From positions 1 through 37,410 of IMG/VR virus record IMGVR_UViG_3300044530_001005: 37,410 bases of DNA; one strand, given 5' to 3'. The notes under the pieces were generated by a model. The model was not told where the DNA came from, made no database searches, and saw nothing but the letters and a program-made list of their open reading frames with translations. Shown here one piece after another: positions 19,291-37,169 of this stretch. Position 1 is the stretch's first letter, and the number at the start of each line of letters is the position of its first letter. Source of the DNA: a virus. The position numbers and the translations under genes are program-made.

Positions 19291-22200
19291 ATGGCAGATT
19301 TTAAACTAGGTAGAATTAAATTTAAATGGAGAGGTGACTGGTCAACCTCTACAGGTTTTCTTATTGATGACGTAGTAAAATACGGTGGTAATACTTACGT
19401 CTGTATTGTTAACCATACTTCTCAATCTACAAGTCCAGGATTTTATACAGATTTAACGGCTGCTAAATGGTCACTACAAGCTGAATCTCTTTTCTTTAAA
19501 GGCACATATGCTGCCTCTACACATTACAAATTAAATGACGTAGTAAAATATGGTGCTAGACAATACCGTTGTACAACTCAACACACATCAGCTGCGACTG
19601 TAGGTGGTGTAGCAATATTAAACGCAGCTAATTTTGAATTATATATTGATGCCACAGATTATAAAGGCACATATACTACAAGCACTTATTACAAAGTAAA
19701 TGATGTAGTTAAATACGGTGGCAGTTTATATATTTGTACTACTGCTCATACTTCATCAGCAGGTGCTTCATCTTTTAATGAAAGTAATTTTAGTGCTTAC
19801 ACAGAAGGTTTACAATTTGAAGATTCTTGGAGTTCAGCAACTGCTTATCAAAAAGGCGATATAGTAACTTATGGTGGATATGCTTACGTTGCTTCTTTAG
19901 AAATTCCTTCTGGTTCAGCTGCACCTGTTGCTTCATCTCTTGATTGGGATTTAATTGTTCCAGGATTTAAAGCTCAAGGAGATTGGATTTCAGGTAATCA
20001 ATACACATATAAAACAGGAGATACTGTTAAATTTGGTGGATATGCATACGTTTGCATAGTAGATACCTTTAATGATGGTTCTACTAATGTTACACCTATA
20101 AACACGTCTTTTTGGACAAAAGTAGTAGAAGGATTTACTTGGAAAGGAACATACAGTGCAATTACAACTTATTTTAAAGGCGATACTGTTGAATATAATT
20201 CCAGTTCTTATGTCGCAATCGCTCATACTATTTTAAACGTAACGCCAGGAACAGATGTAACAAAGTGGCAATTAATTGCCGCAGGTGATAGTAATGCAGT
20301 TGTTACAACACGTGGAGATATTTCATATAGAAATGCTTCCGCTCCTGCAAGATTACCAATTGGTGTTGTCGGTTCAGTTTTAACTTCAAATGGTTTAGAA
20401 CCAGTTTGGTCTAACGCAGGAAGTAGAGGAAGTTTATTCGTTGCAAATAACGGAGATGACACAAATCCAGGAACTTCTTTATTACCATTTAAAACAATTG
20501 AGTACGCTTTATCACAAGCGTCAAAAGGTGACGTAGTTACAATTACAGGCATAACAGGCGGTACAGGTGGTATTTCAGGAACTTATTCAGTAACCGCTAC
20601 AGGAGGAACTGGTACAGGATTTGCAGGACGAATTGTTGTTGACAGTTCAACAGTAACCGCAACTTTAACAATTACAAACGGCGGTAAAAATTATACTGCT
20701 GGTGATACTTTAACTATTTCTAATGCTCAATTAGGTGGCACACCTGCTACTAATATGACATTTACTGTTGAGTCGGTTTCAGTAGGAGATATTATAAATG
20801 TTGCTGGAGGAGTTTATAGAGAACAAATGCCTTTAGTAATTCCTGCCGGTGTTACTCTAAAAGGAGAAAGTTTAAGAACAACAGAATTAAGACCTGCTAC
20901 AGGCAGTTCATCTACAATTGCTACAGTGACAAGAACATCAGGTGGAATTGGTGGAACACCAGGTACTTACCTTTATAAACACCAATCATCAACATCAGGT
21001 AGTGGACAAGGAGCTTGTATCACAGTTGTAAAAGATGGTTCATCCGTTCCTACAATTACAGTTGTACACGGCGGTTATAATTATGCAGTGTCCGACACTA
21101 TCACAATTCTAGGATTTTCATTAGGTGGTGGTTCAGATTTAGTTTTAACGGTTACGGCTTTAGAAAACAATAATGCTGCTTATTGTTTCTTATGTAATGA
21201 CACAAACAATATAAGATGGTTTACGTTTAGAGGATTTACAGGTATTGCAACACATACTGGTTTAGGTGCTGTTATTACATCTTTAGACCCAGAAGGAAAC
21301 ATTGCATCTCAATCACCTTATATACAAGATTGTACAGTAGTATCAAATAACGCTTGTGGTATTAAAATAGACGGATTTTTACACACATCAGCAACAAGTA
21401 ATAAATCAATTCTAGCAAATGACTTTACACAAATTAACTCAGACGGTATAGGAGTTTGGGCATTAAACGGAGGCCGAGGTGAAATGGTTTCCGTGTTCAC
21501 TTATTATTGTGATAAATCTTTTTATGCAACAGGCGGTGGATTTATACGAGGATTAAATTGTTCTTCTGCTTACGGAGAAGAAGCTCTAGTTGCTGAAGGA
21601 GAACTATCACAAAATACGTTAGCACCAATTTTTGAAACTCCTGTAAGAACAAGATCAAGAGGTAGAACAATTAAATATAATGCAACTACTTTTTCAGGTG
21701 GAAATACGCCAGCTTCTTTTGTAATAGGTCAAACTATAGTTGGTAATACTTCAGGTGCTACAGGTACAATTTTTAGAATAAATTTAACAGGAGAAAGATT
21801 ACATTTAGATCCTGCTACAGGAGCCTTTACACAAGGTGAAACGATTACAGTTACAACAACAAGTGGCACATTTACAGTACAGATACCAAACACAGCTGCA
21901 GGTATTTCAGGCAACGGTGCAAAACAAGCAGGATTTTTCGTAGAAGTAGAATCAACTGACGGCACTTTAACTCCTTCAGGTGTAATTAAAATTGGAGATA
22001 ACGTAAAGATAGGAAATAATCCTAATTACTTTATTGTAAACGGTGTTACAAATGAAGATGCTGCTACACAAACAGTTCAAGTTCGTTTAGTATCAGAAGT
22101 TTCAACACTAGACGCTTATCCAGATAATACAGCAGTTGTATTTTCACGTAAATATTCTGCATTAAGATTTACAGGACACGATTTTTTAGATATAGGTACA

Positions 22201-22989
22201 GGAGATTTTGTCACAACAAATTATCCAGGTACTCCTTCTCAACCGGCCGACCAAGCAGACGAAGTTGAGTTTAGTGACGGAGGCCGAGTTTATTGGACTT
22301 CTACAGACCAAGGTGGAGATTTTAGAGTTGGAGATTTATTCCGTATTCAACAGGCAACTGGTATTGCAACTTTAAATGCTGACGCTTTTGACCTTTCAGG
22401 ATTAACAGAATTACAATTAGGAACTATTGGTGCTCAGTTAGGTGCCACAATTAACGAGTTTTCTACAGACCAAGAAATGTTAGGAGATTCTAATACGGCC
22501 GTTCCTACAGAAAATGCTGTAGTAGGTTATACACAAAGAGATAATATGGGCACTGGACATTTAGTGCCGCCTACAGGAACAACAGCTGAAAGACCAACAG
22601 GCGCAGAATTATTTACTGGAGGTATTAGATATAATTCTTCGTTAGTAACTTGGGAAGGTTATAATGGTACACAATGGACTGGATTGGGAGGTGGTAACCC
22701 TTGGCAATCAACATCATCAAGTATTACAATTGCTGCTAACGACAGATACTTTGTAAACACTTCAAGTGCTGCTGTAACAATTACTTTACCAGCTTCACCA
22801 CAGGCAGGAGACCAGGTAAGTTTAATAGATTTAGCGGGTACTTTTGATACAAACAATTGTACTGTTGCAAGAAATGGTAATAAAATAATGGGATTAACAG
22901 AAAATTTAGTGTTATCTATAGAAGATGCTGGAATTACACTTGTATATTCAGGTGCAACATATGGATGGAAATTAGCAAATAATATTTAA
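19291..22989 (+). CDS. Large tail fibre with CBM-like repeats and beta-helix
   Basis: A 1232-residue protein. Residues about 10-325 contain six repeats of the type 'W.g.ws..t.Y..gDvVkYgg..Y.c...hts', like the chitin-binding CBM5/12 fold. At residues 375-400 a segment LFVANNGDDTNPGTSLLPFK followed by TIEYAL matches the DUF1565-type entry of a right-handed beta-helix, and a later V.GGVYREQMPLVIPAGVTL continues it. Two inserted 'GG..Y..gD.lti' modules interrupt this region. Residues about 1095-1135 (TGTTAERPTG... IRYNSS... WEGYNGTQW) match a module also present in the next protein. The C-terminus is a beta domain common in phage fibres. Predicted to bind host surface glycans. Confidence 0.85.
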   Translation: MADFKLGRIKFKWRGDWSTSTGFLIDDVVKYGGNTYVCIVNHTSQSTSPGFYTDLTAAKWSLQAESLFFKGTYAASTHYKLNDVVKYGARQYRCTTQHTSAATVGGVAILNAANFELYIDATDYKGTYTTSTYYKVNDVVKYGGSLYICTTAHTSSAGASSFNESNFSAYTEGLQFEDSWSSATAYQKGDIVTYGGYAYVASLEIPSGSAAPVASSLDWDLIVPGFKAQGDWISGNQYTYKTGDTVKFGGYAYVCIVDTFNDGSTNVTPINTSFWTKVVEGFTWKGTYSAITTYFKGDTVEYNSSSYVAIAHTILNVTPGTDVTKWQLIAAGDSNAVVTTRGDISYRNASAPARLPIGVVGSVLTSNGLEPVWSNAGSRGSLFVANNGDDTNPGTSLLPFKTIEYALSQASKGDVVTITGITGGTGGISGTYSVTATGGTGTGFAGRIVVDSSTVTATLTITNGGKNYTAGDTLTISNAQLGGTPATNMTFTVESVSVGDIINVAGGVYREQMPLVIPAGVTLKGESLRTTELRPATGSSSTIATVTRTSGGIGGTPGTYLYKHQSSTSGSGQGACITVVKDGSSVPTITVVHGGYNYAVSDTITILGFSLGGGSDLVLTVTALENNNAAYCFLCNDTNNIRWFTFRGFTGIATHTGLGAVITSLDPEGNIASQSPYIQDCTVVSNNACGIKIDGFLHTSATSNKSILANDFTQINSDGIGVWALNGGRGEMVSVFTYYCDKSFYATGGGFIRGLNCSSAYGEEALVAEGELSQNTLAPIFETPVRTRSRGRTIKYNATTFSGGNTPASFVIGQTIVGNTSGATGTIFRINLTGERLHLDPATGAFTQGETITVTTTSGTFTVQIPNTAAGISGNGAKQAGFFVEVESTDGTLTPSGVIKIGDNVKIGNNPNYFIVNGVTNEDAATQTVQVRLVSEVSTLDAYPDNTAVVFSRKYSALRFTGHDFLDIGTGDFVTTNYPGTPSQPADQADEVEFSDGGRVYWTSTDQGGDFRVGDLFRIQQATGIATLNADAFDLSGLTELQLGTIGAQLGATINEFSTDQEMLGDSNTAVPTENAVVGYTQRDNMGTGHLVPPTGTTAERPTGAELFTGGIRYNSSLVTWEGYNGTQWTGLGGGNPWQSTSSSITIAANDRYFVNTSSAAVTITLPASPQAGDQVSLIDLAGTFDTNNCTVARNGNKIMGLTENLVLSIEDAGITLVYSGATYGWKLANNI
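19324..20270 (+). repeat. Six tandem CBM5/12-like protein repeats
   Basis: Six copies of a repeat of about 50-55 residues begin near 19324, 19495, 19660, 19816, 19969 and 20137. Each has a Trp or Tyr-containing start (GDW/GTY/DSW), a 'Y..gD.V.Y/Kygg' centre and a 'Y.c' strand. The DNA copies have diverged, so this is an old protein-level repeat rather than a recent DNA duplication. Confidence 0.75.
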
Positions 22990-26082: not shown

Positions 26083-26562
26083 ATGAAAACTATAAAAAAT
26101 TTTTTAGATAATTCTATTTTTTTTGACTTGAAAAAACAATTAATGGGTCAGGATTTAGAATGGCACTATCACAATAGTCAAACACCTTTGGATACTGATG
26201 ACGAATATTTTGACCATTGTTTTTATAACAAATATGAAATATCTTCACATAGATTTGATTTGATTAAACCTATTGTAGAAAAATTAAAATGTAAATCTTT
26301 AATTCAGGTTAGAGCTAATCTTTTAATAAAAAAAGAAAAAGCAAAGTTTTCAGAATTTCATACTGATTATAGTTATGAGTGTAATACTGCTATATTTTAT
26401 ATAAACAGTTGTAATGGATACACGGAATTTTTTGATGAAAAAAAATCAATAGTAAATTGCGAAGAAAATAAAATAGTTATTTTTAATTCTCAAATAAAAC
26501 ATAGAGCTGTATCTCAAACTGATACAAAACAAAGAATTGTTATTAATTTAAATTATTTTTAA
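26083..26562 (+). CDS. Small 2OG-Fe(II) oxygenase
   Basis: A 159-residue protein with H93-T-D95 (FSEFHTDYSYE), H140 (QIKHRAVSQTD) and R151 (RIVINLNYF), an HxD...H...R set. It is clearly related to the 164-residue protein at 34332, sharing the order 'R.NL...... HTD ... YvN..NGyT ... H...... R..IN.NY' to the last residue. It is four bases behind the preceding oxygenase and four bases before the halogenase gene, so the three are likely co-expressed. Substrate unknown. Confidence 0.75.
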   Translation: MKTIKNFLDNSIFFDLKKQLMGQDLEWHYHNSQTPLDTDDEYFDHCFYNKYEISSHRFDLIKPIVEKLKCKSLIQVRANLLIKKEKAKFSEFHTDYSYECNTAIFYINSCNGYTEFFDEKKSIVNCEENKIVIFNSQIKHRAVSQTDTKQRIVINLNYF

Positions 26563-26566
26563 TATT

Positions 26567-28099
26567 ATGAAACTTAAAAAAATTATGATTGTGGGTGGCG
26601 GCTCGGCTGGTTGGATGACTGCAGCTACTCTTATTAAACAATTTCCAAATTTAGATATAACCCTAATAGAGTCTCCTAATATTTCTACAGTAGGAGTAGG
26701 AGAAAGTACTATAGGTGGTATAAGACTTTGGACAAATTGGTTGGGTATAGACGATAAAGAATTTTTAAAATACACAGATGGTAGTTATAAATTAAGTATT
26801 AAATTTACCGATTTTTACAAAAAAGGAGAGGCCTTTCACTATCCTTTTGGGCGACCAGATATTACTGATTGTAGTTCTGGATTAAACGATTGGTGGTGGA
26901 AAAAATTTAATTATTCAGAAACTCCATATAGTGATTATGCAACTTCTTATTTTCCTCAAATGGCTTTAGTAAATGAAAACAAATGTTTTTATAATGAAAA
27001 AAATGAAATTCCTTTTTTATTTAAAAAAGATACAGCATTTCATTTTGATGCAACAAAATTTGCTTTATGGTTAAAAGACAAATATTGTTTGCCTAGAGGA
27101 GTAAAACATTTAAAAGAAGAAGTTAATACAGTTGAACTTGGTGAAGAAGGTATCGTGTCGGTAAATAATCATTTAAAAGCAGACTTGTTTGTTGATTGTA
27201 CTGGATTTAAATCTTTGTTATTAGATAAAACTTTAAAAGAACCTTTTGAATCTTATGCAGATATGTTACCTAATAATTCTGCTTGGGCTACAAGAATAAA
27301 TTATAAAAATAAAAAAGAAGAATTGGTTGGTTACACAAATTGTACAGCTATTCAAAACGGATGGGTTTGGAATATACCATTGTGGAGTAGAATAGGAACA
27401 GGTTATGTTTATTCTGACAAATTTGTTTCCGATGATGACGCATTAAAAGAATTTCAAAAACATTTAAAAACTGACGAATTGGAATTTAAAAAAATTAAAA
27501 TGCGTGTAGGCATACATAAAAGATTGTGGGTTAAAAATGTTGTTGCTATAGGACTGGCAGCTGGTTTTATAGAACCACTTGAAAGTAACGGCCTATTTAC
27601 AGTACACGAATTTTTATTAAAATTAATAAGAAATTTAAATAGAGATAATATTTCTCAATGGGATAGAGATAATTTTAATTATGATTGTAAAATAATGTTT
27701 AGAAACTTTGCTGAATTTGTTGCTTTACATTATGCACTATCTCATAGAGATGATACTGAATACTGGAAATCAAATTTAAATAAAGAGTGGTCAAAAGATT
27801 TGATTGATTTGAAAAAAACATTGGTTACAGGATTTGTACACGCTGCTTTATGTAGAACACACGATTTCCAATTTAATCCTAACGAAGGATTGCATTGTAT
27901 ATCTGCTGGTATGCATTGGGGTCCTACAGAAAAAACAACAATAGATTGGTTAAATAGTTATAGAGATTTGAATGATTTAAGAAATTTTGAAAAACAATGT
28001 ATTGAAAAATTAAACGAAAAAAAAGAAATTTGGAAAAACGCTATAAAGGATAAACCTAGTTTACACGATTTTTTAAAAGAAAATATTTATAAAGATTAG
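26567..28099 (+). CDS. FAD-dependent halogenase (tryptophan-halogenase family)
   Basis: A 510-residue protein with the GxGxxG FAD-binding motif of this family at residues 10-16 (GGGSAGW), GVGEST at 43-48, a candidate catalytic lysine K75 (DGSYKLSIKF), the diagnostic WxWxIP at W266-V-W268-N-I-P271, and FIEPLES at 334-340, where E339 matches the glutamate that assists Lys in PrnA/RebH. Full length and complete motifs indicate an active enzyme that uses FADH2, O2 and halide to make a halogenating species. A flavin reductase is not seen in the window. A marine phage relative, VirX1 of cyanophage Syn10, is an established iodinating enzyme. The substrate here is unknown. Confidence 0.88.
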   Translation: MKLKKIMIVGGGSAGWMTAATLIKQFPNLDITLIESPNISTVGVGESTIGGIRLWTNWLGIDDKEFLKYTDGSYKLSIKFTDFYKKGEAFHYPFGRPDITDCSSGLNDWWWKKFNYSETPYSDYATSYFPQMALVNENKCFYNEKNEIPFLFKKDTAFHFDATKFALWLKDKYCLPRGVKHLKEEVNTVELGEEGIVSVNNHLKADLFVDCTGFKSLLLDKTLKEPFESYADMLPNNSAWATRINYKNKKEELVGYTNCTAIQNGWVWNIPLWSRIGTGYVYSDKFVSDDDALKEFQKHLKTDELEFKKIKMRVGIHKRLWVKNVVAIGLAAGFIEPLESNGLFTVHEFLLKLIRNLNRDNISQWDRDNFNYDCKIMFRNFAEFVALHYALSHRDDTEYWKSNLNKEWSKDLIDLKKTLVTGFVHAALCRTHDFQFNPNEGLHCISAGMHWGPTEKTTIDWLNSYRDLNDLRNFEKQCIEKLNEKKEIWKNAIKDKPSLHDFLKENIYKD

Positions 28100-28113: not shown

Positions 28114-28121
28114 TATAAATA
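28114..28121 (+). promoter_or_regulatory. T4-type late promoter core TATAAATA
   Basis: An exact core nine bases before the ATG at 28131, heading the oxygenase, heme oxygenase and bilin reductase unit. Confidence 0.7.
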
Positions 28122-28130
28122 ATTATTATT

Positions 28131-28898
28131 ATGATTACAACAAATAAATATTGGTGTTTTAATTCTCAGTTATCACCTGAAGTATGTGATGAAATAATTA
28201 AATTAGGAACATCTTCAATTGAAAAAAATAAAAAACTTGGAATTTCTTCTGTTGCTTATACTTTTGGTAATAAAGAAAAATCTGATGACAAAAAAGTTTC
28301 TCAAGGCGAACTTTCTATTCAACAATTAAAAAATACGCAAGATAAAAATAATATAGAAGATGTATATATAAGAGATAGTGAAGTATCCTGGTTAAATGAT
28401 AAATGGTTATATGATACTATTTTACCTTATGTTAGAACAGCTAATAAAAATTCAGGTTGGAAATATGATATAGATTATTTTGAGAATTTTCAATTTACTG
28501 TTTATAATTCACCAGGAGGTTTTTATGGTTGGCACAATGATATGTCAACAGATCATCACGCTTCATACAAAAGATATATTTATGGAATAACTGAAGTTCC
28601 TTTAAGAAAAGATGGACACTTACCTTTTGGATATACAAAAGATAATAATTTAGTAGGCAAATTAAGAAAAATAAGTGTAACTATAAATTTAACAAATCCT
28701 TTAAGTTATGAAGGAGGAAATTTAAAATTTGATTTTGGAAATCATTTTGAAGGAGATAGATTTTATGAATGTGTTGAAAGTAGACAACAAGGTTCTATTA
28801 TTGTTTTTCCTTCTTATTCATATCACTGTGTAACTCCTGTAACAAAAGGGACACGATATAGTTTAGTACTATGGTGTTCTGGAAAGCCTTTTAAATGA
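28131..28898 (+). CDS. PKHD-type 2OG-Fe(II) oxygenase (hydroxylase)
   Basis: A 255-residue protein. The N-terminus (CFNSQLSPEVCDEIIKLG) is the standard start of prolyl-4-hydroxylase-like phage oxygenases. H135-N-D137 (FYGWHNDMST), the strand ISVTINLTNPLSYEGGNLKF, H232 (SYHCVTPVTKGTRYSL) and R242 complete the 2OG/Fe(II) site. The spacing and 'yeGG.L.f......g....FpSy..H.V.PVt.G.RyslV.W' block are classic for the PKHD family. It is first gene of the unit that leads to ho1 and pcyX. Its stop overlaps the next start (ATGA). Substrate unknown. Confidence 0.88.
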   Translation: MITTNKYWCFNSQLSPEVCDEIIKLGTSSIEKNKKLGISSVAYTFGNKEKSDDKKVSQGELSIQQLKNTQDKNNIEDVYIRDSEVSWLNDKWLYDTILPYVRTANKNSGWKYDIDYFENFQFTVYNSPGGFYGWHNDMSTDHHASYKRYIYGITEVPLRKDGHLPFGYTKDNNLVGKLRKISVTINLTNPLSYEGGNLKFDFGNHFEGDRFYECVESRQQGSIIVFPSYSYHCVTPVTKGTRYSLVLWCSGKPFK

Positions 28899-29536
28899 CA
28901 TCTATAGAATATTTTAAAGAAAACAAATATATAGTAATAAGAAATTTTATTCCTACTGACACTGTACCATTATATTATGAATATTGTAAAATGCAGGTTC
29001 AATCAATAGATTATAAAATAACAAATTTTAAAAATTCATATGATGAAAAATGGGATGGAAAATTTACAGACACTCAGGCTACAAATGTTTTTAGTAAATA
29101 CGGCGACATTTTAATGGATTCAACTTTAAAATTGCTAACTTATAAAGCAGAGGAATACACTGGATTAAAATTACTACCTAATTATTCTTATTGGAGATTA
29201 TATGAAAAAGGCAGTATATTAGAAAAACATAAAGATAGACCTAGTTGTGAAATTTCTGCAACCTTAAACTTAGGAGCAAATTTATCAAATATTGATACAC
29301 AAATTTATCCTAACTATCAATGGCCAATATTTGTTTCAAGCAATGGTAAAGATATACCGATTCATTTAGAGCCAGGAGATGCTATGATTTATAGAGGATG
29401 CGAAATAGAACATTGGAGAGATGAATTTATAGGATTAAATAATGCTCAAGTGTTTTTTCATTGGAATGAAAAAAACGGACCATATTCTATAGAAAATGAT
29501 GGAAGACCTTTACTGGGAATTCCTTCTGTCAGTTAA
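28895..29536 (+). CDS. 2OG-Fe(II) oxygenase-like protein (phage P4H-like)
   Basis: A 213-residue protein beginning with 'NKYIVIRNFIP', the typical start of 2OG oxygenases. H112-K-D114 (LEKHKDRPSCEISATLNLG), then a 'PGDAMIYRG.eieHWRDeF.G' block with H173 and a terminal FFHW fit a small P4H-like family in T4-like marine phages. An arginine at the usual 2OG position is not obvious, so 2OG binding may use another residue. It overlaps the previous stop (ATGA) and is two bases from the heme oxygenase gene. Substrate unknown. Confidence 0.7.
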   Translation: MTSIEYFKENKYIVIRNFIPTDTVPLYYEYCKMQVQSIDYKITNFKNSYDEKWDGKFTDTQATNVFSKYGDILMDSTLKLLTYKAEEYTGLKLLPNYSYWRLYEKGSILEKHKDRPSCEISATLNLGANLSNIDTQIYPNYQWPIFVSSNGKDIPIHLEPGDAMIYRGCEIEHWRDEFIGLNNAQVFFHWNEKNGPYSIENDGRPLLGIPSVS

Positions 29537-29538
29537 TT

Positions 29539-30117
29539 ATGTTAAATATTAAAGAATTAACTTTAGAAGAACATAAAAAAGCTGAAGAAGAACCTTTTGT
29601 GCAAACTCTTATGTCTGGCCAAATACCACCAGACCTTTATGCCACATATTTGTTTAATCTATTACAGTGTTATTCAACACTAGAGAAATATGCTTTTGAA
29701 AACGGCCTGTTTAGACAAACACCTGGCCTTGACAGAGCGCAAAAAATAGACCACGACTTTCGTTCACTATGGAATCAACCGAATAAACCACACATCACAG
29801 ATAGCACTTTAAGATACGTTTATCACTTAGATACAATTAAAAGTGATGCTGAAAAATTATATGCACATATCTATGTAAGACATATGGGAGATTTATATGG
29901 AGGACAAATGATTAAAAGAAAAACACCTGGCCCTAATACATATCTTGTTTTTTTAAAACCTGAAGAAACAAAAAGAGTTGTAAGAGAATTAATAAATCAA
30001 TATATGAACACGTATCAAGTAAACGTGGTCGCTGAAGCTAAATTATGTTTTGAATATGCTACAGAACTATTTAAGGAAATGAATGATTTGGGAAAATCTT
30101 ATACAGTGCAAGAATAA
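29539..30117 (+). CDS. ho1: Heme oxygenase
   Basis: A 192-residue protein of the biliverdin-producing heme oxygenase family. Proximal heme ligand H12 lies in LTLEEHKKAEEEPFVQTLMS, and the distal helix motif is GDLYGGQM at residues 117-124 (family GDLSGGQ, with D118 as the oxygen-activating aspartate). Lys- and Arg-rich C-terminal helices also fit. The enzyme opens heme to biliverdin IX-alpha, CO and Fe(II), using reduced ferredoxin in bacteria and phages. Its stop overlaps the bilin reductase gene by 35 bases, so the two are translationally linked. The cofactor supply is host-derived. Confidence 0.93.
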   Translation: MLNIKELTLEEHKKAEEEPFVQTLMSGQIPPDLYATYLFNLLQCYSTLEKYAFENGLFRQTPGLDRAQKIDHDFRSLWNQPNKPHITDSTLRYVYHLDTIKSDAEKLYAHIYVRHMGDLYGGQMIKRKTPGPNTYLVFLKPEETKRVVRELINQYMNTYQVNVVAEAKLCFEYATELFKEMNDLGKSYTVQE

Positions 30118-30766
30118 TATCATAGACATATTAGATTTAAATTGTGTAGAATACTTTGAGGAAGGTATGACACGATTTAATAAAGAAGGTTGGGTCAATC
30201 GTACTTGGAAAAATGACAACATAAGACGAGCACACGTTGACGTGGTTGATGCAAGAGATACTAAAGGTTTATGGATGATGCACGTTTGTTTATTTCCTGG
30301 CCTTACAAATGGTGGCCCAATATATGGATTTGATGTAATAGCAGGTAAGAATAAAGTAACAGGTGCATTCCACGATTTTTCACCATTACTTAAAAAAGAA
30401 CACCCATTAACGAATTGGTTTATCAATGAAACAAAATGGTATAAACCGAGTAAAGAGAGAGAGTTACCAGATTGGGCAAAGGCCATCTTTAGTGGTGGTA
30501 TGATTGCGGCTGGTAATATACAAACAGAAGAAGAATTGTTCCAAGTCACAACAATGGCCGAAAGTAATTTACATAACTACTTAGATAAAATTGTTAATTT
30601 CAAAAATGACTCAAAACAAGAAGATGTTATAAAGGCACAGAATTACTACTGTGAATATCAACAACAAAACCCACATACACCTAGAGTTATGTTATCTTTA
30701 GGTTTGAAAGAAGAAGATGTAATAGCTTTCAATAAAGACCATCTTTTTCCAAAGATAAATACTTAA
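30083..30766 (+). CDS. pcyX: Ferredoxin-dependent bilin reductase, PcyX-like
   Basis: A 227-residue member of the ferredoxin-dependent bilin reductase family, from residue alignment with PcyA: IRRAHVDVVDARD, MMHVCLFPG, GPIYGFDVIAG and FHDFSP all match in order. D84 aligns with the catalytic PcyA D105 and H67 with H88. D53 replaces PcyA E76. D219 near the C-terminus is a candidate counterpart of PebS D206. The retained His together with Asp for Glu76 points to PcyX, the phage enzyme reported to make phycoerythrobilin from biliverdin, rather than PebS or PcyA. It is a soluble cytoplasmic enzyme. ATG at 30083 overlaps ho1 by 35 bases; a start at residue 29 would lose conserved sequence. Confidence 0.85.
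   Translation: MIWENLIQCKNNIIDILDLNCVEYFEEGMTRFNKEGWVNRTWKNDNIRRAHVDVVDARDTKGLWMMHVCLFPGLTNGGPIYGFDVIAGKNKVTGAFHDFSPLLKKEHPLTNWFINETKWYKPSKERELPDWAKAIFSGGMIAAGNIQTEEELFQVTTMAESNLHNYLDKIVNFKNDSKQEDVIKAQNYYCEYQQQNPHTPRVMLSLGLKEEDVIAFNKDHLFPKINT
30754..30761 (+). promoter_or_regulatory. Variant late promoter core GATAAATA
   Basis: One mismatch to TATAAATA (first base), at the end of the pcyX gene and six bases before the ATG of the outer-membrane protein gene. Cyanophage late promoters tolerate a variable first base. Confidence 0.4.
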
Positions 30767-30767
30767 T

Positions 30768-31868
30768 ATGAAATTAGATAAGAAATTGATAATACAATAT
30801 GTTGCAGTTATTATAATATTTTTAATTGCTTTACTTTTAACTTCAATTGTAAAAGCAGATGAAAAGAAAATATCTGAATTAGAGAAAAGAATATCACAAT
30901 TAGAATCAAACAAACTATCAATACCTAAAGGCCTTTTTATTGCAGGTGAAGTTGAAGCTTATTATGATGACCGTACTTACGATAGTGGTTTAGACTCAAG
31001 AGCTGAATTGCAAATAGGCATTACACATAAGTTTAATAATCATTATGTAAATTGGACTGGCGCTTCAATGTTATACGATACTTATTATTCACTTGATACT
31101 ACTTTAAACAATACGGTACAAGAAAAACAAATGGGATTTGGTAATGACTATTACAGATTATATCTTGGTGAAACAGACGCACAACGTTTAGGTTTTGCTA
31201 AGACACCTAAAGTAGGTGCACCATTAATTATTACACAAACAAATTCAAGGTTAGACCATAGAGAGAAAACAGTTCTAGCGATTGGTGGTTTTAATTGGGA
31301 CGATCAATTTGATTTTGATTCATATAGATTAAGAAATGATTTACCATTAGGTTTAGTTGTAGGTTGGGATAACGAGAGAGATGCTTTATATACAAGTGCA
31401 ACAGTAGGACTCTTTGGTTATGCTGATTTATCTTATATGCAAATTAAAAATCCAAAAAGTTCAACAAGTGTTTCTAGCTTTAATGAAAGAACACAACAAG
31501 GTTGGTCATTGGGTGGCAGTTTATATCGTTGGGACATTCCTTTAATATGGGGTACAGAAGTTTGGGAAGATAAAGATACAGGTTTTGCTGACAAAAACAG
31601 ATATGACTACGGTGTGTTATATAGTTTTAATGAAAAAATTTATGGTACTGTTCATAGAACAGAAAATGATGACCTAGGATTTACAGGTAACTATTACGGA
31701 CTTGTTTACAATATACATACAGAAGATGATAAACACAAACGACCAGATAAAAGAGCTGGTTTAGAGTTTGGTTTGTATTACCACGATAAAGAACAAACTT
31801 CAGTGTTTACAGGTGTCTATAAAGATTATAACCCTCAATTATTAGCGACAATACGATATAAGTTCTAA
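30768..31868 (+). CDS. Secreted beta-barrel, porin-like outer-membrane protein
   Basis: A 366-residue protein. A basic N-terminus and hydrophobic core (about residues 9-28) followed by SIVKA, then DEKK, form a typical signal peptide with likely cleavage near residue 31. A coiled coil follows (ISELEKRISQLES). The rest is beta-rich with alternating aromatic and polar residues and many Tyr, Trp and Gly, ending in LLATIRYKF. A C-terminal aromatic residue, particularly Phe, is the hallmark recognised by the BAM complex. This suggests a porin-like trimer. It is unusual for a phage. The gene lies directly after pcyX and before the neck gene gp13. Function unknown: nutrient uptake or superinfection exclusion are possibilities. 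Confidence 0.8.
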   Translation: MKLDKKLIIQYVAVIIIFLIALLLTSIVKADEKKISELEKRISQLESNKLSIPKGLFIAGEVEAYYDDRTYDSGLDSRAELQIGITHKFNNHYVNWTGASMLYDTYYSLDTTLNNTVQEKQMGFGNDYYRLYLGETDAQRLGFAKTPKVGAPLIITQTNSRLDHREKTVLAIGGFNWDDQFDFDSYRLRNDLPLGLVVGWDNERDALYTSATVGLFGYADLSYMQIKNPKSSTSVSSFNERTQQGWSLGGSLYRWDIPLIWGTEVWEDKDTGFADKNRYDYGVLYSFNEKIYGTVHRTENDDLGFTGNYYGLVYNIHTEDDKHKRPDKRAGLEFGLYYHDKEQTSVFTGVYKDYNPQLLATIRYKF

Positions 31869-31877
31869 TCCTATTAT

Positions 31878-31885
31878 TATAAATA
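31878..31885 (+). promoter_or_regulatory. T4-type late promoter core TATAAATA
   Basis: An exact core nine bases before the ATG of gp13, in the morphogenesis block. Confidence 0.75.
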
Positions 31886-31894
31886 GTAGAGATT

Positions 31895-32707
31895 ATGGCA
31901 ACTCCAGCAACACGAGAAACACTTAAACAATATGCTTTAAGAGCATTAGGTAAACCAGTTATAGAGATTAATGCTGATGACGACCAGTTAGAAGATAGAC
32001 TGGACGAAGCCTTACAATTTTATGCTCAATATCACTATGATGGTATTAGACGAACATATCTAAAATATCAAGTAACAGAAACAGATAAAGCCAGATTACA
32101 AGCGTCTTTAGGTTCAACAGAAACGGCCACTAAAAATTCAGTTTCATCTACTTGGTATGAAGGAAGCAATTTTTTAGTAGTGCCTGAAACCGTTATTGGT
32201 GTAACTAATATATTTCCATTTTCAGATAAAGCTAGTATGAATATGTTTGACGTAAGATACCAATTACGTTTAAATGACCTTTATGATTTTGCTTCAACAT
32301 CTATTATTAATTATGATATGGTGTTAAGACATTTAGATTTCTTAGATCAAATATTAGTAGGTATAAAACCTATACGATTTCAACAACACGATAATAGATT
32401 ATATATTGATATGGATTGGGTACACGATTTAGAAGTTGGAGAATTTTTAATTATAGACTGTTATCGTAAATTAGATCCAACAACATACACAGACGTATTT
32501 AATGACCAATGGTTAAAAAGATACGTTACGGCATTATTTAAAAAACAATGGGGAGCTAATCTAAGTAAATTTGATGGAGTAACTATGATTGGCGGAGTTA
32601 AATTAAATGGTGAAAAAATTTATACTGATGCAATTACAGACGTTGAAAAATTAGAAAAAGAAATTAGAGATAGTTTTGAATTAGCACCAGCATTTTTAGT
32701 AGGTTAA
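31895..32707 (+). CDS. gp13: Neck protein gp13 (T4-like)
   Basis: A 270-residue protein with the conserved opening of T4-like gp13 (MATPATRETLKQYALRALGK, PVIEINADDDQLEDRLDEALQF). The family forms the neck connector ring that closes the DNA-filled head before tail attachment, together with gp14. The ATG at 31895 is supported by the family's N-terminus. The late core ends nine bases before it. It is followed by gp14 with a four-base gap. Confidence 0.93.
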   Translation: MATPATRETLKQYALRALGKPVIEINADDDQLEDRLDEALQFYAQYHYDGIRRTYLKYQVTETDKARLQASLGSTETATKNSVSSTWYEGSNFLVVPETVIGVTNIFPFSDKASMNMFDVRYQLRLNDLYDFASTSIINYDMVLRHLDFLDQILVGIKPIRFQQHDNRLYIDMDWVHDLEVGEFLIIDCYRKLDPTTYTDVFNDQWLKRYVTALFKKQWGANLSKFDGVTMIGGVKLNGEKIYTDAITDVEKLEKEIRDSFELAPAFLVG

Positions 32708-32711
32708 TACT

Positions 32712-33506
32712 ATGCCAGTAAATCATTATTTTCAAGGCGGCCAAGGTATTGGCAATCAAGCTGAAAAAACACTTTACGAAGATTTAATTGTAGAGGGCCT
32801 ACAGATATATGGCCACGATGTCTATTATTTACCAAGAACATTAGTCAATAGAGATTTAATATTAGGTGAAGATACATCTAGTAGATTTGACGATAGTTAT
32901 TTAATTGAAATGTATTTTGAAACGTCTGAAGGATTTGCAGGTCAAAGAGAATTAATTAATAAGTTTGGATTAGAAATAAGAGAAGATACAACGTTTGTTA
33001 TTGCAAAAAGAAGTTGGCAAAATCAAGTAGATAATCCAATGACACAGATTGTAGAAGGCCGTCCTAATGAAGGAGATATTATATATTTTCCTTTAATGAA
33101 TAGTTTTTTTGAAATACAGTTTGTAGAAGATCAAGAGCCATTTTTTCAATTAGGTAATCTACCAGTTTATAAATTACGAGTAACACGTTGGGAATACAGT
33201 TCAGAAGAATTAAATACAGGCATTACAGAAATAGATGCTAAAGAAACTGATTACTCTTTAAATCTACTAAACAATAGATTTACTTTAGAGAATGAAACCG
33301 GTTCTTTACAATTAGAACAAGACCAGTCATCTGGTCAAGCTAACTTCTTCTTAAATGAAGAATCAACAACTACGACAACGGTGGCCACTCAATCTACCTA
33401 TGCACAAAATTTAGATTTAGATACAGAAGCTGGTTTTGATACACAGTCTGTAACTGATGATATATTAGACTTTACAGAAAGAAACCCATTTGGAGAAATT
33501 GATTAA
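32712..33506 (+). CDS. gp14: Neck protein gp14 (T4-like)
   Basis: A 264-residue protein immediately downstream of gp13, starting MPVNHYFQGGQGIGNQAEKT, a characteristic gp14 N-terminus in T4-like marine phages. It also has the conserved DVYYLPRTLVNRDLILGED and ends with a Gln/Thr-rich linker region and NPFGEID. It works with gp13 in the head-tail neck. The stop overlaps the gp15 start (TAATG). Confidence 0.92.
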   Translation: MPVNHYFQGGQGIGNQAEKTLYEDLIVEGLQIYGHDVYYLPRTLVNRDLILGEDTSSRFDDSYLIEMYFETSEGFAGQRELINKFGLEIREDTTFVIAKRSWQNQVDNPMTQIVEGRPNEGDIIYFPLMNSFFEIQFVEDQEPFFQLGNLPVYKLRVTRWEYSSEELNTGITEIDAKETDYSLNLLNNRFTLENETGSLQLEQDQSSGQANFFLNEESTTTTTVATQSTYAQNLDLDTEAGFDTQSVTDDILDFTERNPFGEID

Positions 33507-34312
33507 TGTTTGGTAATTTTTTTTACAACGAAGGAATGAGAAAGATAATAATTGCATTTGGTCAATTATTTAATAACATTGTTATTCAATCAACTTCAAG
33601 CACAGGTGCTGTAACTAAAAGATTAAAAGTACCTTTAGCCTATGCACCAAAAGAAAAGTTTTTAGTTAGACTTGACCAAAAACCAGATTTAGATGATCGT
33701 AGTTTTGCGATTACATTACCTAGATTAGGATTTGAAATTTCAGGTTTAGCATATGACGCTACAAGAAAATTAACAAGAGTTCAAAAATTTAAACAAGTTA
33801 AAACAGGTGAATCTGGTAAAGTTCTTAATTTTAATTATGTACCTGTGCCTTATAATATAAGTTTAAATTTATATGCATTTACTGCCACTGCTGAAAATGG
33901 TTTACAAATAGTAGAACAAATACTTCCTTTCTTTCAACCTGATTATACTGTAACTGTAAATGTTGTACCCGCTTTAAATATTAAAAGAGATATACCTATA
34001 ATTTTAAATAGTCTGTCATATGAAGATAGTTATTCAGGTGATTTTACGACTCGTAGGGCCGTTATATATACCTTAAACTTTACTGCCAAAACATATTTGT
34101 TTGGGCCTATGTCCAATCAAGGTGTTATTAAAACTGTACAGTCAGATATTTACACTGATACAAATACAACAACGGCAAAAAGAGAAGAAAGAATTGTGGT
34201 AGTGCCAGACCCTACTACGGCTGATGCAGATGATGATTTTGGATTTACAACAACAATTACTTCTTTTACCGACAGTAAGAAGTATAACCCCGTGACCGAT
34301 ACTGATAGTTAG
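33506..34312 (+). CDS. gp15: Tail sheath stabiliser/tail terminator gp15 (T4-like)
   Basis: A 268-residue protein with the gp15 opening MFGNFFYNEGMRKIIIAFGQ, then LFNNIVIQ, and a conserved segment around VPLAYAPKEKFLVRLDQKP and LPRLGFEISGLAYD. gp15 forms the hexameric ring that ends the tail tube and sheath and joins it to the neck. The start lies in the gp14 stop codon. After it the block is interrupted by a 2OG oxygenase gene. Confidence 0.92.
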   Translation: MFGNFFYNEGMRKIIIAFGQLFNNIVIQSTSSTGAVTKRLKVPLAYAPKEKFLVRLDQKPDLDDRSFAITLPRLGFEISGLAYDATRKLTRVQKFKQVKTGESGKVLNFNYVPVPYNISLNLYAFTATAENGLQIVEQILPFFQPDYTVTVNVVPALNIKRDIPIILNSLSYEDSYSGDFTTRRAVIYTLNFTAKTYLFGPMSNQGVIKTVQSDIYTDTNTTTAKREERIVVVPDPTTADADDDFGFTTTITSFTDSKKYNPVTDTDS

Positions 34313-34320
34313 TATAAATA
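34313..34320 (+). promoter_or_regulatory. T4-type late promoter core TATAAATA
   Basis: An exact core directly after the gp15 stop, 11 bases before the ATG of the inserted oxygenase gene. Confidence 0.65.
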
Positions 34321-34331
34321 TATAAGTTATT

Positions 34332-34826
34332 ATGTTTTATAAAATAGTTGATAATTTTTTACCAAAAAATGAATTTAAAATAATTCAAGATTTATTTTAT
34401 TCTCAAAATTTTCCTTGGTATTACAATAAAGGAGTTTCTTACACGAATATTTCACCAGATGGCATTTATTTTACTCATTTATTTTATTTTTTTGAAAAAG
34501 ATAATTTAAATGTCAGCAATCATTACAATCATATTTTACCAATTATTAGTAGATTAGATGTTAAGTCTATTTTACGAATTAAAGGTAATCTTTATTCAAA
34601 AACAAATACAATTTTTGAACACGGCGCACATACAGATTTTGATTTTAACCATAAAGGATTTTTATATTATGTTAATACTAACAATGGTTTTACTAAACTA
34701 AGTAATGGTATTAAAGTAGAATCTGTTGAAAATAGAGGTTTATTTTTTGATCCATCATTAATTCATAATAGTAGTACTTGTAGTGATAGTGATAGTAGAA
34801 TTAATATAAATTTTAATTATTTATAA
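34332..34826 (+). CDS. Small 2OG-Fe(II) oxygenase inserted between gp15 and gp16
   Basis: A 164-residue protein with H100-T-D102 (EHGAHTDFDF), H145 (SLIHNSSTCSDSDSR) and R156 (RININFNYL), a full HxD...H...R site. It is a paralogue of the protein at 26083, with the same order 'R.kgNLy ... HtDf ... lYYvNtnNGfT ... H ... R.nINfNYl'. It has its own late core and lies between neck and terminase genes, so it is expressed with virion assembly. Substrate unknown; a virion protein is a possible target given the setting (inference). Confidence 0.78.
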   Translation: MFYKIVDNFLPKNEFKIIQDLFYSQNFPWYYNKGVSYTNISPDGIYFTHLFYFFEKDNLNVSNHYNHILPIISRLDVKSILRIKGNLYSKTNTIFEHGAHTDFDFNHKGFLYYVNTNNGFTKLSNGIKVESVENRGLFFDPSLIHNSSTCSDSDSRININFNYL

Positions 34827-34839
34827 AATTAAATAAAAT

Positions 34840-35316
34840 ATGACAAAACTAGAAGATAAAGTAAACGAGATACTTGGCATAGAACCTGATAATAAACCTA
34901 CTTTAGAGTCTTTAATAAAGGTAGGAAATCCTTCTGTTCCTAGAATAGAAGATACAAACAAATCTGATGTAGATAACGATTACAAATATAGTAGAGATAA
35001 TTATTATGACCTTATACAAAAGGGTCAAGAAGCAATTGAAGGTATATTAGAAATTGCAAAAGAAGGACAACATCCAAGAGCATATGAAGTAGCAGGCCAA
35101 TTAATTACTAACGTTGCACAAACAGTAGATAAGTTACAAGACTTACAAAAAAAATTAAAAGATTTAAAAGACTTACCTAAAACTGCAAATCAAAATATTA
35201 AAAATGCTTTGTTTGTAGGTTCTACGGCTGAATTACAAAAAATGTTGAAAAGAGAAAATGAAAATATTAAAAGCACAATCATTAAATCCGAAGAAACAGA
35301 TATTTCAGATAAGTGA
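34840..35316 (+). CDS. gp16: Terminase small subunit gp16 (T4-like)
   Basis: A 158-residue protein with the hallmark DYKYSRDNYYDLIQKGQEAI, then EIAKEGQHPRAYEV, of T4-like gp16. A central coiled coil (about residues 80-115, VAQTVDKLQDLQKKLKDLKD) drives ring formation. It recognises phage DNA and stimulates the large terminase in headful packaging. It lies 13 bases after the oxygenase gene. Its 3' end overlaps the following small gene by 59 bases. Confidence 0.92.
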   Translation: MTKLEDKVNEILGIEPDNKPTLESLIKVGNPSVPRIEDTNKSDVDNDYKYSRDNYYDLIQKGQEAIEGILEIAKEGQHPRAYEVAGQLITNVAQTVDKLQDLQKKLKDLKDLPKTANQNIKNALFVGSTAELQKMLKRENENIKSTIIKSEETDISDK

Positions 35317-35545
35317 TTTAACTTATATAACACGTATAACTCCTTTAAAAGAGTTATTGAATGGTGAAGATATGATAGAACCTATTGAGATAATGAAACA
35401 CGAACAATCTGAAAATTTAAGATTAGGTGCGAATGGTGTTAACTTTGTTGAAAAGAAATATAGTGTATGGAGAGGCAATCAAAGAATACAGGCTGCATTA
35501 CAATTAGGTTATACACATATAGAAGGAATTATAATTAATGAGTGA
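35258..35545 (+). CDS. ParB/Srx-fold-like small protein between gp16 and gp17
   Basis: A 95-residue protein whose order 'QISDLTYITRI....LLNGEDMIEPIEI' and 'YSVWRGNQRIQAALQLGYTHIEGIIINE' matches the ParB N-terminal fold (…dG.hR..Aa..lG…i..iii). The ATG at 35258 lies 59 bases inside gp16, an unusually long overlap. The next in-frame ATG (residue 39) would remove the first beta-strand of the domain, so the longer form is preferred. Its stop overlaps the gp17 start by eight bases. It may bind DNA or a nucleotide near the terminase; function unknown. Confidence 0.6.
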   Translation: MKILKAQSLNPKKQIFQISDLTYITRITPLKELLNGEDMIEPIEIMKHEQSENLRLGANGVNFVEKKYSVWRGNQRIQAALQLGYTHIEGIIINE

Positions 35546-37169
35546 AGTTTATCTCGGTAATCCAAATTTAAAAAAAGTAAACGTACCTGTAGAGTTTACA
35601 CAAGAACAAATTTTAGAATTTGAAAAGTGTTCTAAAGACCCTTTATACTTTATACAAAACTATGTAAAGATAGTTTCTCTTGATTTAGGTTTAGTACCTT
35701 TCAAAATGTATAACTTTCAAAAAGAAATGGTTGGCACTATGCATAACAACCGTTTTACTATATGTAAATTACCAAGACAGTCAGGTAAATCAACAACAAT
35801 TGTATCTTATCTATTACATTATGTTCTGTTTAATCCAAATACTAACGTTGCCATACTTGCAAACAAATCATCTACAGCAAGAGATATATTAGGCCGTTTA
35901 CAATTGGCCTATGAGAATATACCAAAGTTTTTACAACAAGGTGTATTAAACTGGAACAAAGGTAATATAGAATTAGAGAACGGCAGTAAAGTCGTGGCCG
36001 CTGCAACTTCTTCAAGTGCAATCCGAGGAGGTTCTTATAACATAATCTTCTTAGACGAGTTTGCTTTCGTACCAGCCACTATTGCAGAACAATTTTTTAG
36101 TTCGGTGTTTCCTACAATTTCTTCTGGTAAAAGTACAAAGATGATTATTGTTTCTACACCTCACGGTATGAATATGTACTATAAGTTATGGACAGATGCC
36201 GTTAATAAGCAAAACGATTATATACCTATTGATGTACATTGGTCAGAAGTTCCAGGCCGAGATGAAAAATGGAAACAAGAAACAATACGAAATACAAGTC
36301 CTGAACAATTCCAACAGGAGTTTGAATGTGAATTTTTAGGTTCAATAGATACACTTATTAGTCCTACAAAAATTAAATCTACACCTTATATTAAACCTTT
36401 ACAGTCACAAGGTGGTTTAGATATATTTGAAAGGCCTGATAAAAATAAAATATACGTTTGTACTGTTGACGTGTCAAGAGGTCTTGCAAAAGATTATTCG
36501 GCCTTTATTATATTTGACGTAACCAAAATGCCTTATCGTGTTGTGGCCAAATACCGTAACAATGAAATTAAACCTTTAGTTTTTCCAAATGTAATCGAAC
36601 AAACTATAAAAGGATATAATCACGCTCATACATTGATTGAAGTAAACGATATAGGTGGCCAAATATCAGATGCATTACAATTTGATTTAGAGTATGACAA
36701 TCTATTAATGACTACACAAAGAGGTAGAGCTGGCCAGGTATTAGGTACGGCCTTTAGTGGTAGAGGCAGTCAATTAGGTATTCGTATGACTAAACAAATT
36801 AAAAAGATAGGTTGTTCTAATTTAAAAACTATTATTGAAGCAGATAAAATAGTTATAAATGACTTTAATATTATAGAAGAAATGTCTACCTTTTCACGTC
36901 AACACAATTCTTGGAAAGCTGAAGAAGGTTGTAATGATGATTTAATGACTTGTCTTATTATATTTGGCTGGTTATCTAATCAACCATACTTTAAAGAGTT
37001 AAGTAATTCTGATGTACGTTCTAAACTATATGAAGATCAGGCCAATATAATAGAACAAGATATGGCGCCTTTTGGCTTTATAGATGATGGTACACCAGAA
37101 GAAGATAAACCTTTTAAAGACGAATATGGAGAAGTGTGGCATCCTGTTACAAGGAGAGGTGAAAATTAG
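35538..37169 (+). CDS. gp17: Terminase large subunit gp17 (T4-like)
   Basis: A 543-residue packaging motor. The ATPase half has a Q-motif-like F60-Q61, Walker A LPRQSGKST (about residues 78-86, K84) and Walker B IIFLDEFAF with D173-E174. The nuclease half has the acidic strands VCTVDVSRG, IEVNDIGGQ and CNDDLMTCLI of the RNase-H-like headful nuclease. It cuts concatemers and pumps DNA into the prohead. Length and order are normal for T4-like phages. Start overlaps the previous stop by eight bases. Confidence 0.97.
   Translation: MSEVYLGNPNLKKVNVPVEFTQEQILEFEKCSKDPLYFIQNYVKIVSLDLGLVPFKMYNFQKEMVGTMHNNRFTICKLPRQSGKSTTIVSYLLHYVLFNPNTNVAILANKSSTARDILGRLQLAYENIPKFLQQGVLNWNKGNIELENGSKVVAAATSSSAIRGGSYNIIFLDEFAFVPATIAEQFFSSVFPTISSGKSTKMIIVSTPHGMNMYYKLWTDAVNKQNDYIPIDVHWSEVPGRDEKWKQETIRNTSPEQFQQEFECEFLGSIDTLISPTKIKSTPYIKPLQSQGGLDIFERPDKNKIYVCTVDVSRGLAKDYSAFIIFDVTKMPYRVVAKYRNNEIKPLVFPNVIEQTIKGYNHAHTLIEVNDIGGQISDALQFDLEYDNLLMTTQRGRAGQVLGTAFSGRGSQLGIRMTKQIKKIGCSNLKTIIEADKIVINDFNIIEEMSTFSRQHNSWKAEEGCNDDLMTCLIIFGWLSNQPYFKELSNSDVRSKLYEDQANIIEQDMAPFGFIDDGTPEEDKPFKDEYGEVWHPVTRRGEN

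Follow-up and report, generated by a model that had tools for sequence, protein, structure and literature searches.

The window analysed here, a virus record of 37,410 nucleotides (37.4 kb) that is probably a fragment, is a piece of a Mosig-type T4-like phage in which a heme oxygenase (HO) gene and a PcyX-type bilin reductase gene are directly followed by a third gene, a predicted outer-membrane porin (Table 1). A cassette with such an HO-PcyX pair is already published, and the window adds one more member to it; what is new is the setting, namely the porin behind the pair, the other phage types that carry these genes, and the freshwater occurrence. Because the pair alone is not new, these three points give the finding its value. 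The identity of the two enzymes is well supported, and the cassette as a whole would act in heme, iron or bilin traffic.

Identity of the bilin gene pair and of the phage

The HO protein scores above the 23-bit cut-off of the Pfam Heme_oxygenase profile and carries both H12 and GDLYGGQM, which we take to be the proximal His and the GD-x-x-GG motif of heme oxygenases. Its ORF overlaps that of the reductase by 35 bases (30083-30117), so that the ORFs and Pfam scores bear out the gene pair, the coordinates, the overlap and the HO motifs of an earlier note made on this DNA from its letters. The reductase likewise exceeds its Pfam cut-off (Fe_bilin_red, 31 bits), and its best solved relative is PcyX_EBK42635 (5owg), a phage enzyme from a marine metagenome that was matched across nearly the full length (E 3.7e-108, 69.8% identity) and has the same Asp and His as the window protein. 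Identity to P-SSM4 PcyA is 29%, and PebS gave a weak local match only. Among phage records, the Mosig reductase is 71% identical, whereas the other 18 matching records are cyanophage bilin reductases at 24-29%.

A reductase tree of 36 rows (31 PcyX with the window and 5owg included, 4 PcyA and 1 PebS), built without alphaproteobacterial PcyA, CB_2 PcyA, PebA, PebB and HY2, has a branch (95/93) that sets apart the 31 PcyX rows and another (100/95) that sets apart the 4 PcyA rows; the single PebS row sits on a very long branch and its position is unsure. The alignment column of D53, which aligns with Asp55 of 5owg, holds Asp in 31/31 PcyX rows and Glu in 4/4 PcyA rows, and the H67 column holds His in the PcyX and PcyA rows and Asn in the one PebS row. 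The earlier note had called the enzyme PcyX-like for keeping H67 and having Asp where PcyA has Glu, and had proposed a bilin-reductase tree as a check; both the residues and the grouping with PcyX, apart from PcyA, agree with it, with the PebS placement unsure and PebA and HY2 not among the rows. Asp55 is named as PcyX-specific in PMC11480375 (2024), where its absence is used to explain the PCB-making PcyA of the freshwater phage CB_2, and PMC10151467 states that PcyX shares a lineage with alphaproteobacterial PcyA. Judged from its sequence, the reductase is well supported as a PcyX rather than a PcyA or PebS, and phycoerythrobilin (PEB) is its likely product. Comparison of the window with 8 relatives gave dN/dS values of 0.10-0.19 for HO, 0.05-0.13 for PcyX and 0.08-0.33 for the porin, indicating purifying selection on all three genes.

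Head-tail connector, sheath-stabiliser and terminase genes lie downstream of the pair (31895-37169), and the neck, sheath-stabiliser and terminase genes are conserved in Mosig order. The nearest cultured phages are the Pelagibacter phages Mosig and HTVC008M, in line with the T4-type lineage to which the earlier note had assigned the pair; by analogy with these two phages only, the window phage probably infects Pelagibacterales. In total, 41 of the 67 window ORFs of at least 60 aa were scanned with Pfam, PHROGs or both, many of the remaining ORFs being short or antisense. No phycobiliprotein, bilin lyase or phytochrome was found among the scanned ORFs, as the earlier note had said of the window. 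The scanned ORFs showed no photosystem gene either; the note's description of the phage as one lacking such genes holds for this stretch but does not extend to the whole phage, since the window is probably a fragment.

Table 1. Features of the window and of related virus contigs (positions without a locus name refer to the window)
Feature	Position	Strand	Basis or remark
VirX1-like flavin halogenase	26567-28099		best PDB match VirX1 6qgm, E 9.1e-106
TATAAATA motif before gene run	28114-28121	+	motif search
2OG-Fe(II) oxygenase-like gene, first of run	28131-28898	+	Pfam PF13640 46.6 bits; PHROG 61
Gene that PHROGs name 'ferrochelatase'	28895-29536	+	PHROG 2954; same name in Mosig annotation
Heme oxygenase (HO), 192 aa	29539-30117	+	Pfam PF01126 66 bits; PDB heme oxygenases E 4.8e-11 and weaker
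PcyX-type ferredoxin-dependent bilin reductase, 227 aa	30083-30766	+	PF05996 67.2 bits; 5owg match; tree; D53
Outer-membrane porin-like gene, 366 aa	30768-31868	+	16-strand model; porin fold matches; place behind pcyX conserved in part of the family
TATAAATA motif before gp13	31878-31885	+	motif search
Neck gene, gp13-like (PHROG head-tail adaptor Ad2)	31895-32707	+	PHROG match and Mosig synteny; first gene behind cassette
FTR1-family iron permease near SufT-like gene and porin	L034:11186-11812	+	virus contig
FTR1-family iron permease near SufT-like gene and porin	L110:1724-2323	+	virus contig
FTR1-family iron permease near SufT-like gene and porin	L261:10792-11385	+	virus contig
FTR1-family iron permease near SufT-like gene and porin	L262:6850-7443	-	virus contig
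HO, Trp-halogenase-family gene, PcyX, overlapping ends	L257:1743-4487	-	
HO, Trp-halogenase-family gene, PcyX, overlapping ends	L258:1414-4140	-	one further record
HO, Trp-halogenase-family gene, PcyX, overlapping ends	L266		

Relation to the published cassette and habitat

PcyX relatives are numerous in IMG/VR, where one scan found 514 (of which the best 80 were kept) and a second at least 599. The closest cultured counterpart, Mosig EXVC030M (MT647606.1), has the same gene order, overlapping HO and PcyX genes (60% and 71% identical to those of the window, respectively) and the same site before gp13 and the neck and terminase genes. It differs in its upstream genes and in having no porin between pcyX and gp13, and no such porin was found anywhere in its complete 141 kb record. 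The novelty that the earlier note implied for the pair is therefore not borne out, the pair having already been published in a pelagiphage beside gp13. In the tree, 5owg groups with Mosig and not with the window's own sub-branch.

A hemO-pcyA/X-valaS cassette of pelagiphage-like origin, with valaS as third gene, is described in PMC11480375, which also reports the cassette without valaS. Common to it and the window are an HO gene beside a PcyA/X-type reductase and a T4-like phage background that is presumed to stem from pelagiphages; the window differs in having the porin as third gene instead of a 5-ALA synthase; a search for the latter (TIGR01821) gave no match in the window, and 29 of 30 records searched were without one. 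A 177 kb phage record (L326, the record of locus L049) holds a 5-ALA synthase (565.6 bits) together with HO-PcyX, as in PMC11480375.

The same source gives PcyX as found so far only in marine viruses. Five IMG sets (3300021091, 3300021093, 3300020197, 3300020578 and 3300020179) come from Lake Tanganyika according to PMC8245535, and five loci in these sets (L011, L025, L026, L031 and L194) have the porin and a PcyX 84-93% identical to that of the window. PcyX is therefore not confined to the sea, and the oceanic label that the earlier note gave the enzyme does not fit these close freshwater relatives. Five further loci from the same lake (L146-L150) belong to a 57% PcyX branch and have no porin on the stretches examined.

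A porin-like gene behind pcyX

The porin ORF, which is missing from the earlier note, begins 1 base past the pcyX stop; searches of Pfam, PHROGs, PDB sequences and the phage collection gave no significant match to it. A structural model (pLDDT 73, pTM 0.69; moderate confidence), for which 15 relatives were used along with the window protein, forms the 16-strand beta-barrel of general bacterial porins. Foldseek matched the model to the R. blastica porin (E 6.6e-9), and VIA-align gave a Z of 22.7 and an rmsd of 3.1 over 278 residues against an OmpC chain; VIA-align re-ranks Foldseek matches only, and the fold comparison leaves room for other barrel families. By eye, the N-terminus of the protein is hydrophobic, its C-terminus reads YKF and it contains a coiled-coil stretch. 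It thus resembles the general 16-strand porins (OmpC, OmpF, Rhodobacter-type) in the fold of its model, whereas sequence identity to them is about 10% and the N-terminal coiled-coil stretch sets it apart. The third gene is accordingly described here as porin-like.

A pattern-based genome scan, with SAR11 genomes outside its scope, found one cellular relative of the porin at 50% identity, and searches in the order and the class of that relative returned 1 of 14 and 1 of 57 genomes, both times that same genome. The cellular gene lies behind aminotransferase-V (SufS-like) and SufE genes on a 3.3 kb MAG contig that may be misbinned. No open-access paper was found that uses the term 'phage-encoded porin', nor one on a porin in the Pelagibacter phage Mosig, and none of the open-access titles and abstract openings covered joins phage bilin genes with a porin. 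The text of PMC13198022 gave no mention of pcyX, of iron or of any name in 'pelagi'.

Linkage of the porin with the bilin genes across phages

Within the window's phage type, linkage was counted among the best 80 of 514 PcyX loci, 73 of which show both PcyX and gp13 (the seven others being L001, L018, L019, L020, L034, L047 and L065). Where PcyX identity to the window is at least 78%, the porin lies between pcyX and gp13 in 27/27 loci (23/23 by distinct pcyX DNA); below 78% it does so in 3/46 (3/32 by distinct pcyX DNA). In six still more distant loci, partly fragments (L236-L241), PcyX identity is near 63% and porin identity near 51%, and gp13 is present. HO-PcyX can therefore work without the porin, as the complete Mosig record and 43 of the 46 more distant loci do without it.

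Additionally, a pcyX-porin block was found in a second phage type (L034 with its near-copy L047, L198 and L199), which gave no gp13 match on the stretches examined and in which the order is HO, PcyX, porin, a SufT-like gene and an FTR1-like permease. In this block pcyX and the porin gene are a few bases apart, and in L034 the porin and PcyX are 89% and 74% identical to those of the window. Profile searches of 24 records detected FTR1 in three (L034, L047 and the record of L110), all of the second type, and did not find it in the window's own lineage; in L198 and L199 the assignment rests on 76-78% similarity to the L034 permease. The L110 locus has FTR1, the porin's end and a SufT-like gene recognised by eye. 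These FTR1 and Suf neighbours are few and amount to clues of context pointing to iron. In a third phage type, HO, PcyX and the porin lie at distances of roughly 1.5 to 12 kb from one another.

A wider scan for the porin found 133 relatives, of which 80 were kept. PcyX is on the locus in 49 of these 80; of the other 31, two are cut inside the porin, and a search of the records of the remaining 29 showed six that hold a bilin reductase elsewhere, which brings the porin loci with a bilin reductase on the same record to 55/80. At the other 25/80 (the two cut loci and 23 others), most of them on short fragments, no bilin reductase was found, so an initial view that PcyX always accompanies the porin was dropped. 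In the record search, 7 of the 9 records of at least 40 kb have a bilin reductase, four of these seven being near-copies since the halogenase gene they share is identical; none was found in records of 116 and 53 kb. Overall, pcyX and porin are closely linked in two phage types and more loosely in a third, and the linkage has exceptions.

Upstream genes and halogenases

The gene named 'ferrochelatase' was not accepted as a ferrochelatase or as a link to the heme pathway, as it has no Pfam match and no significant PDB match; an HxD...H pattern seen by eye suggests a 2OG oxygenase, and the family name could mislead counts of heme-pathway genes. The window's VirX1-like halogenase is also unsupported as a module member. 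In a scan with it that gave 58 loci, HO or PcyX was present on the stretches examined in one, the window's near-identical record, although tblastn matches to it at 30-100% identity occur on 11/82 HO-PcyX loci and on some later ones. This halogenase looks like common cargo near tail-fibre genes, being frequent in phage contigs without bilin genes. A scan with a distant gene of the Trp-halogenase family gave five loci, in all of which it lies between HO and PcyX; the copies in four of them are identical, and L258 is one further record with this arrangement. WxWxI, the canonical halogenase motif, was not found in the L257 copy. A predicted flavin halogenase-like enzyme inside the bilin operon (L257, L258, L266) is treated as a lead only.

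Elsewhere in the window, two genes (26083-26562 and 34332-34826) belong to PHROG 274, 'DNA endonuclease V', and a 1232-aa tail fibre (19291-22989) has four carbohydrate-binding modules of family 5/12, which are often chitin-binding.

Transcription signals around the gene run

The motif TATAAATA, which we take to be the T4-type late promoter motif, occurs in 12 plus-strand copies in the window, 11 of them 8-45 nt upstream of an ORF start, as scored against 40 hand-listed plus-strand ORF starts; other 8-mers of equal composition have 71 of 509 copies at such positions. Counted over both strands, the motif is not unusually frequent (16 vs 11.8 expected). Copies at 28114 and 31878 frame the run 28131-31868. 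Because motifs stand before and behind the run and none inside it, its genes are probably transcribed together and late; late joint expression in the window is thus likely, as judged from the motifs.

Across loci with distinct pcyX DNA and a visible gp13 start (duplicates and loci without a gp13 start having been dropped), the motif lies at most 60 nt upstream of gp13 in 80/80. It lies at most 60 nt before HO in 5/62 loci, inside HO-PcyX in 2/62 and around the pcyX-porin junction in 3/31. Among 17 loci in which the nearest upstream copy was looked for, 7 had no copy in the sequence examined and the nearest copy was 13 to 4216 nt away in the others. Late control of HO is therefore not general in the family (5/62 loci).

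Proposed function and alternative explanations

HO would open heme to give biliverdin, iron and CO, and PcyX would use four electrons from ferredoxin to convert biliverdin through 15,16-dihydrobiliverdin to PEB. A 2Fe-2S ferredoxin domain was detected in two (Mosig and G008) of 24 records, most of the 24 being fragments, and this ferredoxin could feed both enzymes. HO, PcyX, the porin and the two genes ahead of them would probably be co-transcribed late in infection. In a host without phycobilisomes, the benefit may lie in the turnover of heme, which would release iron while PcyX takes biliverdin away from HO, and the porin may raise the passage of iron compounds or small tetrapyrroles across the outer membrane, inward or outward. 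That a known PEB-making cassette is here extended by a porin and acts in heme, iron or bilin traffic of such a host is given close to an even chance.

About as likely is a reading, also somewhat short of an even chance, in which HO and PcyX make up the published cassette in its usual form and the porin is an unrelated neighbour, shared by descent, that serves nutrient permeability or superinfection exclusion or is chance cargo at an insertion site before gp13. The absence of the porin from Mosig and most of the more distant loci and the 25 porin loci without a detected bilin reductase agree with it, as do the contents of the pcyX-gp13 gap elsewhere: one other large insert fills it among the best 80 of 514 loci (L048), and a later scan showed gaps of similar size without a porin in L128 and L137. 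However, the pcyX-porin block recurs, at the identities given above, in the second phage type away from gp13, and three phage types hold both genes, which argues against an unrelated porin.

That the pigment helps a cyanobacterial host to harvest light or to maintain its phycobilisomes, a role proposed for the bilin genes of cyanophages, is very improbable here: the nearest cultured phages infect Candidatus Pelagibacter ubique, the cyanophage matches are the bilin reductases at 24-29% identity, and no phycobiliprotein was found in the 24 records searched, most of which are fragments. According to PMC13197396, PcyX expressed in Synechococcus 7942 does let PEB enter phycobilisomes, with an apparent activity below that of PebA-PebB or PebS. 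Somewhat less remote, yet still improbable, is a signalling use in which a phytochrome, a bilin-binding globin or another host protein takes up PEB or an intermediate as chromophore or ligand. The freshwater phage CB_2 encodes an HO and a PcyA that can provide a phytochrome with its chromophore in E. coli (PMC11480375), and in other bacteria pre-PcyA genes are found together with bilin-binding globins (PMC10151467), but no PHY domain was found in the 24 phage records, mostly fragments, a weak test given that it concerns phage records and a PHY profile.

Conclusions

Beyond the reading preferred above, in which the porin extends a PEB-making cassette, a doubtful but possible generalisation is that HO, PcyX and porin make up an exchangeable module with which phages manage bilin, or iron from heme, across the envelope of hosts that do not photosynthesise. 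In that case the porin would admit a source of iron or tetrapyrrole or let the pink bilin out, and other phages would add FTR1 nearby or a halogenase-like enzyme between HO and the reductase, which could modify the bilin. Testable leads are offered by the porin that accompanies the pair, the FTR1-family permease nearby in the second phage type and the presence of PcyX in lake water. The porin behind the pair hints at the handling of heme, iron or pigment rather than at light harvesting and, if true, an exchangeable module would explain of what use bilin genes are to phages whose hosts are not phototrophs.
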